From Alphaproteobacteria bacterium (GTDB taxonomy: Bacteria > Pseudomonadota > Alphaproteobacteria > Ferrovibrionales > Ferrovibrionaceae): a DNA stretch of 64,000 nucleotides. The stretch spans positions 1 through 64,000 of the forward strand of contig CANJGB010000019.1 in assembly GCA_947473805.1 (NCBI GenBank), read 5' to 3'. Under the pieces are notes generated by a model. It was not told the origin of the DNA. It ran no database searches and saw only the letters and a list, made by a program, of their open reading frames with translations. Below are positions 51,271 to 61,018 of this stretch, in pieces. Positions within the stretch are counted from its first letter, which is position 1, and each line of letters begins with the position of its first letter. The translations under genes and the position numbers were made by a program.

Positions 51271-52656
51271 ATGCAAAACCCCAATTCCGCCGCCGCGCGC
51301 GACATTGCCAGCGTGCTGCATCCCTATACCAATCTTGCGGTGCACGAAGAGAGAGGCCCGATGGTTATCGAACGGGGGGCGGGCATTCGGGTGTGGGACG
51401 ACAGCGGACGCGAATATATCGAGGCGATGTCCGGGCTGTGGTGCGCGGGCCTGGGCTTCAACGAAGAGGCGCTGGTCGAGGCCGCGGCGGCGCAGATGCG
51501 GAAACTGCCCTTTTATCATCCGTTCGGGCACAAGTCGCATGGGCCGATGATCGATCTGGCCGAGAAGCTGAAGGCCATGGCGCCGGCGCCGTTTTCCAAA
51601 GTGCTGTTTGCCAATTCCGGCTCGGAGGCGAACGACACGATCATCAAGCTGATCTGGTACTACAACAACGCGATTGGCAGGCCGGCGAAGAAGAAGATCA
51701 TCTCGCGCCAGCGCGCTTATCACGGCGTTACATTGTTTTCGGGCGGCCTCACCGCGCTGCCCAACAATCAGCGCGACTTCGACATGCCATTGGGCCGCAT
51801 TGTCTATACGGACTGCCCGCATTTTTCTCGCAATGGCCTGCCCGGTGAAAGCGAGGCCGGGTATTCGTTGCGGCTCGCCGCGAATCTCGAACGGTTGATC
51901 CTGCGCGAGGGAGCCGAGACCGTGGCCGCCTTTATTGCCGAGCCGGTCATGGGTGCGGGCGGGGTGATCGTCCCGCCGGCCGGGTACTTCGAAGCCATTG
52001 CGCCGGTGCTGAAGAAGTATGACGTGTTCCTGGTGGCTGACGAAGTCATCTGCGGCTTTGGGCGGACTGGCAATATGTGGGGCAGTCAGACCTTTGGGAT
52101 GACTCCGGATTTCCTGTCCTGTGCCAAGCAGCTTTCCTCGGGCTATCTGCCCATCTCGGCGTTGATGATTCCGGACGGCGTCTACCAGGTAATGGTCGAG
52201 CAGAGCCGCAAGATCGGCACGTTCGGCCATGGCTTTACCTATGGCGGGCACCCGGTCGCGGCCGCCGTCGCGCTGCGGACGCTGGAACTGTATGAAGAGC
52301 GGGGCATCGTCGACCACGTGCGCGCCGTTACGCCGCACTTCCAGGCCCGCCTAGCGCACCTGGCCGACCACCCGCTGGTTGGCGAAACGCGCGGTGTCGG
52401 ACTTATTGGCGCCGTGGAACTTATGGCTGACAAACCGGGGCGTCGGGCGTTTCAGCCTGGACAAGGTGTCGGCAGCTATTGCCAGGCGCAGGGCCAGGAA
52501 AATGGGCTGATCACCCGCGCCTTGGGCGACAGCATCGCGCTGTGTCCACCAATGATTATTACCGTTAGTGAGGTCGACGACCTGTTTGATCGCCTCGAGC
52601 GCGCGCTGGACTCAACAGAATCATGGGTTCAGGCCGAGGCGCTGCGCCAGCCGTGA
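51271..52656 (+). CDS. class III aminotransferase (omega-amino acid/pyruvate type)
   Basis: 461-residue PLP enzyme. Phosphate-binding NSGSEANDTIIKL, SRQRAYHGVTLFSGGLT, VFLVADEVICGFGRTGNMWG with the pyridine-N Asp, and catalytic Lys in SCAKQLSSGYLPISA. TFGHGFTYGGHPVA is typical of the beta-alanine/putrescine/taurine-pyruvate branch, while KKIISRQ and FDMPLG are common in its alphaproteobacterial members. The amino donor is uncertain. Start ATG 51271. It is followed by a strong hairpin at 52664. Confidence 0.93.
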   Translation: MQNPNSAAARDIASVLHPYTNLAVHEERGPMVIERGAGIRVWDDSGREYIEAMSGLWCAGLGFNEEALVEAAAAQMRKLPFYHPFGHKSHGPMIDLAEKLKAMAPAPFSKVLFANSGSEANDTIIKLIWYYNNAIGRPAKKKIISRQRAYHGVTLFSGGLTALPNNQRDFDMPLGRIVYTDCPHFSRNGLPGESEAGYSLRLAANLERLILREGAETVAAFIAEPVMGAGGVIVPPAGYFEAIAPVLKKYDVFLVADEVICGFGRTGNMWGSQTFGMTPDFLSCAKQLSSGYLPISALMIPDGVYQVMVEQSRKIGTFGHGFTYGGHPVAAAVALRTLELYEERGIVDHVRAVTPHFQARLAHLADHPLVGETRGVGLIGAVELMADKPGRRAFQPGQGVGSYCQAQGQENGLITRALGDSIALCPPMIITVSEVDDLFDRLERALDSTESWVQAEALRQP

Positions 52657-52663
52657 GGAGGTA

Positions 52664-52690
52664 ACCCGGTGCCACACCGTGGCACCGGGT
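52664..52690. terminator. bidirectional hairpin between the aminotransferase and csbD
   Basis: ACCCGGTGCCAC-acc-GTGGCACCGGGT is a perfect 12-bp stem between convergent genes, 8 nt after one stop and 9 nt from the other. It can end both transcripts, although the T-run is short. Confidence 0.85.
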
Positions 52691-52698
52691 CGCACTTC

Positions 52699-52899
52699 TT
52701 AGTGGTAGGTCTTTTCCCAGACCGAGACCTGCTTCTCTGCTTCGTCCTTGGCAATGCCATAACGCTCCTGCAGGCGGCCGATCATCTGGTCGCGCTGGCC
52801 GGCGATCTGGGTCAAGTCGTCGTCGGTCAGCTTGCCCCACTGCTCCTTGACCTTGCCCTGAGCCTGCTTCCAATTGCCTTTCACGGTATCCCAGTTCAT
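52699..52899 (-). CDS. CsbD-family stress response protein
   Basis: 66 residues from ATG 52899: MNWDTVKGNWKQAQGKVKEQ, then WGKLTDDDLTQIAGQRDQMI, the CsbD family pattern of a small, charged helical protein made in quantity under stress. The biochemical role of CsbD proteins is unknown. A consensus EcfG promoter on the same strand (52987-52963) predicts induction in the general stress response with a leader of about 55 nt. Divergent from the 98-residue protein gene, which has its own EcfG promoter. Confidence 0.93.
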   Translation of the reverse strand: MNWDTVKGNWKQAQGKVKEQWGKLTDDDLTQIAGQRDQMIGRLQERYGIAKDEAEKQVSVWEKTYH

Positions 52900-52962
52900 A
52901 GCGTTCTCCTTGAAATTGAGGGCGTTGGTACCGGGGTGAATGTGCCCCGCGTGCATTGCAAC

Positions 52963-52987
52963 AACGGGAGCGCCGGTCAGGGGTTCC
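52963..52987 (-). promoter_or_regulatory. EcfG (general stress sigma) promoter of csbD
   Basis: On the minus strand GGAAC (52987-52983), 16 bp, CGTT (52966-52963): an exact match to the alphaproteobacterial EcfG/SigT consensus. It is placed 64 bp before the csbD start, and csbD is a classic stress gene, so site and target agree. Confidence 0.8.
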
Positions 52988-53010
52988 GTGACAAGGCAGG
53001 GGATGAACCG

Positions 53011-53035
53011 GGAACCACCATTCCCACAGCGCGTT
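53011..53035 (+). promoter_or_regulatory. EcfG (general stress sigma) promoter of the 98-residue protein gene
   Basis: GGAAC (53011-53015), 16 bp, CGTT (53032-53035): exact consensus. Predicted start near 53042, 29 nt ahead of the ATG at 53071. Together with the opposite promoter at 52963-52987 it forms a back-to-back stress promoter pair, their -35 elements 23 bp apart. Confidence 0.8.
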
Positions 53036-53070
53036 TTAGAAGCGCTACCATCCACCAAGAAAGCCAGGTC

Positions 53071-53367
53071 ATGAACAACCACGTGAAAGCGAAGATTCTC
53101 GATATCGAGCTCGCGCTTACAGATCCGGCGAAAGTTTTCGGTGATCCGAATGAGGTTCTCGGGTGCGACCTGCTGAGCCACGACCAAAAGGTCGACGTCT
53201 TGCGTCGTTGGGAAATGGATACCCGTTTGCTGTCCATCGCCGAGGAAGAGGGCATGACTGGCGGCGAATCAAACAAACTGAATTCGGTCGGCGAAGCGCT
53301 GCTGAAACTCGGCGAGGACAAGGGCCACCGCGCGGACTCCGGCCCGCCGAGCAAGATGGGCAGCTAG
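53071..53367 (+). CDS. small conserved hypothetical protein of the predicted stress regulon
   Basis: 98 residues. Start ATG 53071. The sequence is charged and helical: ILDIELALTDPAKVFGDPNE, HDQKVDVLRRWEMDTRLLSI, AEEEGMTGGESNKLNSVGEA. There is no signal peptide or membrane segment and no recognised catalytic motif. Related short proteins seem to sit near stress genes in alphaproteobacteria, though that is memory-based and unchecked. The EcfG promoter upstream is the strongest clue: likely a stress-response protein of unknown function. It ends in a 4-bp overlap with the convergent Kef antiporter gene. Confidence 0.8.
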   Translation: MNNHVKAKILDIELALTDPAKVFGDPNEVLGCDLLSHDQKVDVLRRWEMDTRLLSIAEEEGMTGGESNKLNSVGEALLKLGEDKGHRADSGPPSKMGS

Positions 53368-55040
53368 CTGGCGGCTGTCTGCCCCGCCTCGATCGCCTCG
53401 ATCAGGCCGCGGGCTATCTCGCGTTCGCCCAAAATAATCAGATTGGCGCCATGCTTCTTCAGATAGTCGACTTCCGCATCTGAATGAGCACGCGCCAAAA
53501 TGAGAAGGTCGGGGTTTGCCGCCCTGGCGCCGGCGACGATATGGCCTGCTTCGAACCCGTTAGGGATCGCTATTACCAGCCAGGATGCCCCCGCCAAATT
53601 GGCAGCGTCGATGATCTCGCGCACGGCGGCGTTACCGCTGATCGTCTCGATGCTCTTTGCGCGCAATAATTCGACCAGGGGCTGACGCTCCTCGATGACC
53701 AGGAATGGTTTGCCGCTGGCTTGCAGGGCGTCGCCTACTAGACTCCCCACGCGGCCATAGCCGATCAGCACGATGTGGTTCTGCAAGGCCGTCCTGGTCA
53801 GCGTTTCCTCGATGGCCATATCGGTTCTGGCCACGTCCTTCCTGGTGCCGTCCAGCCAGGGCTTGAAGCGGGCGATCGCAACGAAGAACATCGGGTTGAG
53901 CAGGATGGTCACGATCGCCCCTGCCAGGATCAGGTCTCGCCCTCGTTCAGGCAGCAGGCCCAAGCTGACGCCGAGCGTGGCCAGAATGAACGAGAATTCG
54001 CCGATCTGCGCCAGGCTGGCCGAGATGGTCAGGGCCGTGGCATTCGGATGGCCGAATGCGCGCACGATGCCATAGGCTGCAACTGATTTGCCCACGACGA
54101 TGATCGCCACCGTGGCCAGCACCGGCAGCGGGTCGGTCAACAGGATGCGCGGGTCGAACAACATGCCGACCGATACGAAAAACAGCACCGCGAACGCGTC
54201 GCGCAGCGGCAGGGTTTCTTCGGCCGCGCGGTGGCTGAGCTCGGATTCAGCCAGAACCATGCCGGCGAAGAAGGCGCCTAGTGCGAATGACACACCGAAC
54301 AGCTGCGTCGAGCCCAGGGCGACGCCCAGCGCCACCGCGAGCACCGCCAGGCGGAACAGTTCGCGCGAACCGGTATGCGCGACATAGTGCAGGACCCACG
54401 GAATCACCCGGCGGCCAACCACCAGCATGACAACCAGGAAGGCCGCTACCTTGCCCAGGGTAATGGCCAGCGCCATCAGGATTGCTTCAGTGCTTGGCGT
54501 TGCGCCGTCCCCGCCCAGGGCACCAGCCACGGCCGGCAGCAGCACCAGGACCAACACCATGGCCAGGTCCTCGACAATCAGCCAGCCGACCGCGATGCGG
54601 CCCTTGTCCGTATCAACAAGCCGGCGCTCCTGCAATGCGCGCAGCAGCACGACGGTGCTGGCAACCGATAGCGCGAGACCAAACACCAGACCCTCGCCCG
54701 CCGTCCAGCCGAACGCCCAGCCGAGGCCCATGCCGAGCAGCGTGGCTATCGTGATTTGCGCCACTGCACCCGGCACGGCAATGGCTTTGACCGACAGCAG
54801 GTCTTTCAGCGAAAAATGCAGCCCCACGCCGAACATCAGAAGGATGACGCCAATTTCCGCCAGTTCCTGCGCCAGGTTCTGGTCAGCTACGAAGCCCGGC
54901 GTGAAAGGGCCCACGGCGACGCCCGCCAGCAGATAGCCGACCAACGGTGACACACGCAGGCGGTTTGCTATGGCGCCGAAGATGAAAGCCAGAACGAGGC
55001 CGGCGACGATAGTGGCGATGAGCGGGGTGTGGTGCGGCAT
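53364..55040 (-). CDS. Kef/YbaL-type monovalent cation:proton antiporter with RCK domain
   Basis: 558 residues. About twelve membrane helices (CPA2 family): PLVGYLLAGVAVGPFTPGFV, GVILLMFGVGLHFSLKDLL, SVASTVVLLRALQERRLV, FALGAFFAGMVLAESELSHR. The C-terminal TrkA-N domain from about 410 has the NAD site VLIGYGRVGSLVGDAL. There is no TrkA-C tail of length, as in YbaL. It exchanges K+ (or Na+) for H+ and may respond to electrophile or pH stress, which suits its place beside stress genes. The start ATG 55040 is consistent with the family. Confidence 0.94.
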   Translation of the reverse strand: MPHHTPLIATIVAGLVLAFIFGAIANRLRVSPLVGYLLAGVAVGPFTPGFVADQNLAQELAEIGVILLMFGVGLHFSLKDLLSVKAIAVPGAVAQITIATLLGMGLGWAFGWTAGEGLVFGLALSVASTVVLLRALQERRLVDTDKGRIAVGWLIVEDLAMVLVLVLLPAVAGALGGDGATPSTEAILMALAITLGKVAAFLVVMLVVGRRVIPWVLHYVAHTGSRELFRLAVLAVALGVALGSTQLFGVSFALGAFFAGMVLAESELSHRAAEETLPLRDAFAVLFFVSVGMLFDPRILLTDPLPVLATVAIIVVGKSVAAYGIVRAFGHPNATALTISASLAQIGEFSFILATLGVSLGLLPERGRDLILAGAIVTILLNPMFFVAIARFKPWLDGTRKDVARTDMAIEETLTRTALQNHIVLIGYGRVGSLVGDALQASGKPFLVIEERQPLVELLRAKSIETISGNAAVREIIDAANLAGASWLVIAIPNGFEAGHIVAGARAANPDLLILARAHSDAEVDYLKKHGANLIILGEREIARGLIEAIEAGQTAAS

Positions 55041-60330: not shown

Positions 60331-60355
60331 GGAACCTGGACCGGTGAAACCCGTT
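60331..60355 (+). promoter_or_regulatory. EcfG (general stress sigma) promoter upstream of the 17-kDa-like gene
   Basis: GGAAC (60331-60335), 16 bp, CGTT (60352-60355): exact consensus and identical spacing to the two sites at 52963-53035. The predicted start is near 60362, giving a leader of about 130 nt before ATG 60491. Confidence 0.72.
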
Positions 60356-60490: not shown

Positions 60491-61018
60491 ATGAAGTTCA
60501 TCAAGATTACAGCGGTTGTCCTGGCCCTTGGCGTGACGGCAGCGTGTGCCGACCAGTTTGGCCAGGGTGGCTATGGTAGCGGCGGCAGCTCGGGCAGTTC
60601 GGGCGGCATCAGCAAACAGACCGGCGGCGCCGTGCTCGGCGGCATCGGCGGCGCCGTGGCAGGCTCTGCCTTCGGCAGCGGCACCGGACGCCTCGTGGGT
60701 GTCGGCGCGGGTGCGCTGCTCGGCGCCCTGCTCGGCAGCGAAATCGGCAAATCGCTCGACAAGGCGGATCAGACCGCGCTGAACAGCACCACGCAGCGCG
60801 CGCTGGAAACCGCGCCGTCGAACCAGCCGGTGTCGTGGCGCAATCCCGACAGCGGCAATTCGGGCACGATTACCCCGCGTCCGGCGGTTCAGAACGCCAG
60901 CAACGGCCAGTATTGCCGCGAATTCACCCAGACGATCAATGTCGGGGGCAAGTCCGAACAGGGTGTCGGCACGGCCTGCCGCCAGCCGGACGGCTCATGG
61001 AGGATCGTCAGCCAGTAA
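60491..61018 (+). CDS. glycine-zipper 17-kDa antigen-like outer-membrane protein
   Basis: 175 residues from ATG 60491. The signal segment ITAVVLALGVTAACADQ has a Cys placed like a lipobox, though the -3 residue (Thr) is weak. A Gly/Ser-rich stretch follows, then the glycine-zipper KQTGGAVLGGIGGAVAGSAF and GALLGALLGSEIGKSLD, then a C-terminal domain with two Cys (YCREFTQTI, GTACRQPDGSW) as in the Rickettsia 17-kDa/RT0821 surface-antigen group. Outer-membrane or periplasmic anchoring is likely. The EcfG promoter suggests stress induction. A hairpin terminator ends the gene. Confidence 0.88.
   Translation: MKFIKITAVVLALGVTAACADQFGQGGYGSGGSSGSSGGISKQTGGAVLGGIGGAVAGSAFGSGTGRLVGVGAGALLGALLGSEIGKSLDKADQTALNSTTQRALETAPSNQPVSWRNPDSGNSGTITPRPAVQNASNGQYCREFTQTINVGGKSEQGVGTACRQPDGSWRIVSQ

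Follow-up and report, generated by a model that had tools for sequence, protein, structure and literature searches.

A 64,000-nucleotide stretch of DNA (hereafter, the window) carries two exact matches to GGAAC-N16-CGTT, placed back-to-back on opposite strands within the 73 bp at 52963-53035 between csbD and a gene encoding a 98-residue protein (P98). The question is whether these matches are promoters of the stress-response sigma factor EcfG and whether P98 is a new member of its regulon. A preliminary description had identified the motif as the EcfG recognition sequence, in agreement with the EcfG (ECF15) promoter motif published for Sphingopyxis granuli (PMC7083833) and Rhizobium etli (PMC3892343), and its coordinates and strands for the sites facing csbD and P98 were confirmed (Table 1). 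The -35 ends of the two sites face each other and are separated by 23 bp, within a csbD-P98 intergenic region of 171 bp. The -10 elements lie 63 nt from the start codon of csbD (ATG at 52899) and 35 nt from that of P98 (ATG at 53071), so that both genes have an exact EcfG site at promoter distance, as expected of regulon members. An AAGGAG-like ribosome site is present 5′ of the csbD ATG, and a search of 52650-53400 for sigma-70-type promoters found none. csbD itself is an ordinary representative of the CsbD family (PF05532), unusual solely in having P98 as its divergent partner. The window also contains a third exact site, located 135 nt 5′ of the start (ATG at 60491) of a possible further regulon member, a lipoprotein-like gene that has glycine-rich repeats.

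Table 1 Coordinates of the sites and genes discussed (window positions unless a locus is given).
Feature	Coordinates	Strand	Details
Putative EcfG-type promoter of csbD	52963..52987	-	GGAACCCCTGACCGGCGCTCCCGTT; -35 GGAAC 52987-52983, N16, -10 CGTT 52966-52963
Putative EcfG-type promoter of P98	53011..53035	+	GGAACCACCATTCCCACAGCGCGTT; -35 GGAAC 53011-53015, N16, -10 CGTT 53032-53035
csbD, 66 aa	52699..52899, stop included	-	Pfam CsbD, E = 1e-21
P98, 98 aa, unnamed family	53071..53367, stop included	+	Homologue alignment; two-helix hairpin predicted
Third exact EcfG-type site	60331..60355	+	5′ of lipoprotein-like gene
61-aa ORF in nepR position	L035:7460-7645 (G000:C4)	-	Between EcfG autopromoter and ecfG

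The 73-bp stretch is very probably a pair of divergent EcfG promoters, one driving csbD and the other P98. RNA polymerase carrying EcfG would recognise the -35 GGAAC and -10 CGTT of each site and transcribe outward in both directions, and csbD and P98 would consequently be induced together under the stress response. The sites, the genes, the positional enrichment of the motif, its conservation across genera and the presence of EcfG in the genome are observations. From these we infer EcfG-dependent transcription of the two genes.

The number of motif matches says little about their role. The window has three exact matches where 0.95 are expected, a weak excess that was reached in 6 of 100 shuffles. 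The whole genome (G000; 3.31 Mb in 58 contigs, 95.3% complete) was scanned for GGAAC-N16/17-CGTT, a check that the preliminary description had proposed. Exact matches numbered 78 (36 + 42), compared with 73 (41 + 32) for the reversed motif. The raw count therefore shows no enrichment over the reversed form and is uninformative. The placement of the sites, unlike their count, was decisive for a promoter role. Among the first 30 sites of either kind by contig order, a sample that does not include the window's own sites, 22 real sites and no reversed site were promoter-placed, that is, intergenic and at most 250 nt 5′ of a same-strand start (Fisher p = 8e-10). Genes were called here by codon usage; since the caller favours a long antisense frame at the target region, it served as a comparative tool and not as annotation. 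GGAACC occurs in 15 of the 22 promoter-placed sites and an N16 spacer in 14, and both window sites have these features. Divergent pairs this close are expected by chance roughly 0.1 times genome-wide, as estimated from the site density.

P98 gave no match in Pfam, NCBIfam or PHROG, and a single-sequence search of the genome contigs also found none. An alignment of four homologues from the genome's own family succeeded as a query where the single sequence had failed, retrieving 61 GTDB loci whose record titles name mostly alpha-, beta- and gammaproteobacteria, and P98 was present in 31 of 385 alphaproteobacterial genomes. P98 is a member of an unnamed proteobacterial family that has no Pfam entry, with a core of L..W..D.....VA.EE.M and a C-terminal tail of P[ST]KxG. 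Non-duplicate P98 loci were scored for an exact same-strand EcfG site within 250 nt 5′ of the gene. Such a site was found in 20 of 52 alphaproteobacterial loci, 2 of 10 loci of unclear class and none of 25 other loci, where the host class was taken from record titles and a few labels may be wrong. The remaining 32 alphaproteobacterial homologues are without one when exact matches only are considered, near matches being outside the scoring. At the same loci and over the same 250-nt range, the reversed motif was found in none, and 0.065 sites are expected from shuffled upstream regions. Across whole P98 loci, the alphaproteobacterial set contains 64 motif and 3 reversed sites, while the others contain 1 and 4, respectively.

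These data bear on the alternative that one or both window sites are chance matches and that csbD and P98 use other promoters. The genome-wide parity with the reversed motif and the shuffled windows reaching three matches would fit such an explanation, but the promoter placement of the sampled sites, the retention of the site 5′ of P98 homologues in alphaproteobacteria only, and the lack of a sigma-70-type site around the two genes make it very improbable.

A real pair of sites might instead be read by another ECF sigma factor with a similar -35 preference. The genome has further ECF sigmas (e.g. at C48:10869), and an AAC-containing -35 element is often common to this class. We nevertheless judge this very unlikely, because the full GGAAC-N16-CGTT sequence equals the published EcfG motif (PMC7083833, PMC3892343), an exact site of this type precedes the EcfG operon itself (see below), and P98 genes outside the alphaproteobacteria, where EcfG is absent (PMC3892343), do not have the motif. 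The site is thus conserved where EcfG exists and absent elsewhere, as expected of a regulon member. That P98 forms only the C-terminal part of a longer + strand frame running antisense through csbD (52669-53367) is extremely unlikely: this frame does extend over 232 open codons and the codon-usage caller chose a version of it, but homologues start at or near the P98 ATG, csbD on the opposite strand is a clear Pfam match, and the exact promoter sits just 5′ of the P98 start.

Gene neighbourhoods are consistent with divergent EcfG promoters for csbD and P98. The divergent pair, again with one exact EcfG site per gene, recurs in loci L099 and L120 (G198); conservation of the csbD site is known from these two loci, and the wider survey covered P98. 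In G010 (L088), a genome of the related genus g4, P98 is not preceded by an exact site. In eight loci (L058, L061, L075, L100, L101, L109, L113, L145), ecfG-like and/or phyR genes are found close to P98, and many loci have csbD or DUF3309 near it. In G003, a genome of the same family, csbD adjoins phyR. Literature searches on a connection between EcfG and DUF3309, and on the general stress response in Ferrovibrio, gave nothing useful. In S. granuli TFA, csbD has been shown to be an EcfG target (PMC7083833). Together with the upstream-site contrast, the recurring pair and the ecfG/phyR neighbours, this supports the earlier proposal that the 98-residue protein is a new EcfG-regulon member, on the strength of comparative DNA evidence. 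An unnamed small-protein family spread over the Proteobacteria would thereby be placed in the general stress response, and it offers a natural contrast between alphaproteobacteria, with exact EcfG sites 5′ of the gene, and other groups, with none.

The sigma factor itself was sought in the genome. Six exact EcfG-type sites are clustered at 70.1-76.4 kb of contig C4, which also encodes an ECF sigma (C4:72866-73342, - strand). Its best match is PDB 5uxx (E = 6.6e-39), which we take to be an EcfG-type sigma from Bartonella together with NepR, and it scores above the PhyR_sigma2 model cut-off. One of the sites (C4:73673-73698, - strand) sits 29 nt 5′ of a 61-aa ORF, which is followed by the sigma gene, and this order of site, short ORF and sigma resembles the autoregulated nepR-ecfG layout of S. 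granuli (PMC7083833). Other sites of the cluster precede genes for an OmpA-family protein and small lipoproteins or membrane proteins, and one is beside a superoxide dismutase gene. A paralogue of the C4 sigma, 63% identical, is encoded on contig C1. In a tree of 43 sequences, the C4 and C1 sigmas group with orthologues of the related genus g4 (99/96), and this group is on the side holding 5uxx and the phyR-linked EcfGs. By homology and gene order, the genome has EcfG in the form of an autoregulated locus and a paralogue, and one of these two would most likely be the sigma acting at the csbD/P98 promoters. A third EcfG-like copy (C21:3505-3966; L175, L220) has an in-frame TAG and is apparently broken.

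PhyR and NepR have been described in essentially all free-living alphaproteobacteria (PMC3892343). Of the components of the canonical PhyR-NepR-EcfG partner switch, an EcfG sigma with an autoregulated promoter was found in this genome, and neither PhyR nor NepR was. The preliminary description had proposed looking for ecfG, phyR and nepR elsewhere in the genome; the outcome is mixed, as ecfG was found but phyR and a Pfam-matching nepR were not. Searches of the genome with the PhyR sigma-like model and full PhyR proteins yielded receiver-only or sigma-only matches and no PhyR, while identical searches recovered full PhyR in two genomes of the same family (G003 and G014). The missing 5% of the genome could hide phyR. 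As a whole explanation, this is argued against by ten g4 genomes (G004-G013), among them the single-contig G013, in which no full-length PhyR was found. As for the HWE/HisKA2 sensor kinase of the switch, one match in the genome exceeded the cut-off of the HWE_HK model (32.2 bits, at C2:14469-14699). A PAS-HisKA-HATPase-receiver hybrid kinase on C2 (L218:2428-4090), located behind an exact EcfG site, was weighed as a possible stand-in for PhyR. Having HisKA but lacking a sigma-like domain, it was rejected in that role and is only a candidate signalling input.

The NepR model PF18557 had no match in the genome, and none was obtained with the 61-aa ORF and its relatives even at E <= 10. Comparison of this ORF with the NepR profile was weak (hhalign probability 3.7%, E 0.012). 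The ORF shares W-L-x-R-x-L-x-x-L with the first conserved segment of NepR anti-sigma factors but is without their EPxP...LL segment. In five g4 genomes (L149-L153), a short protein again lies 5′ of the EcfG orthologue and ends in ...F..WLDRaLP.L..yL...KxKH. Of the NepR features, this conserved ORF retains a "WLxRaL" helix only. With a dN/dS of roughly 0.3-0.65 within g4, where computable, it appears to be a genuine gene. Compared with the EcfG (ECF15) regulons of S. granuli and R. etli, the system has the same promoter, an autoregulated sigma locus and csbD among the presumed targets, and differs in the unnamed target P98 and in that the searches found neither PhyR nor a NepR recognisable by Pfam. 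These features may indicate a new variant, located outside 52963-53035, in the form of a PhyR-less EcfG system. A Ferrovibrionaceae lineage with a PhyR-less EcfG regulon, in which a short one-helix protein replaces NepR and control of EcfG falls to some other input, such as autoregulated synthesis, proteolysis or an alternative antagonist, is a tentative reading to which we give slightly less than an even chance. A lineage keeping EcfG and its regulon with no detected PhyR or recognisable NepR is a testable case of partner-switch rewiring.

AlphaFold2 (mean pLDDT 76.9, pTM 0.61) predicts that P98 forms a two-helix hairpin along with short helices. A fold search with this model gave no match at E <= 0.001, and a PDB profile search of P98 reached E = 0.7 at best. 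Small ribosomal-protein hairpins among the weak top fold matches (E >= 2) were regarded as noise. One Burkholderiales MAG encodes P98 as a fusion with a universal stress protein (Usp) domain (L089:3010-3765; Usp E = 4e-30), and a Usp-like sequence directly follows P98 in a Betaproteobacteria MAG (L087:3291-3728). Our guess, a somewhat doubtful one, is that P98 may be a small helical cytoplasmic protein for stress protection or an adaptor, possibly working with universal stress proteins. As a separate observation from outside the alphaproteobacteria, P98 in a Hydrogenophilales MAG (L063:1491-2150) lies near a protein that was recognised by eye as resembling ribosome hibernation promoting factor.
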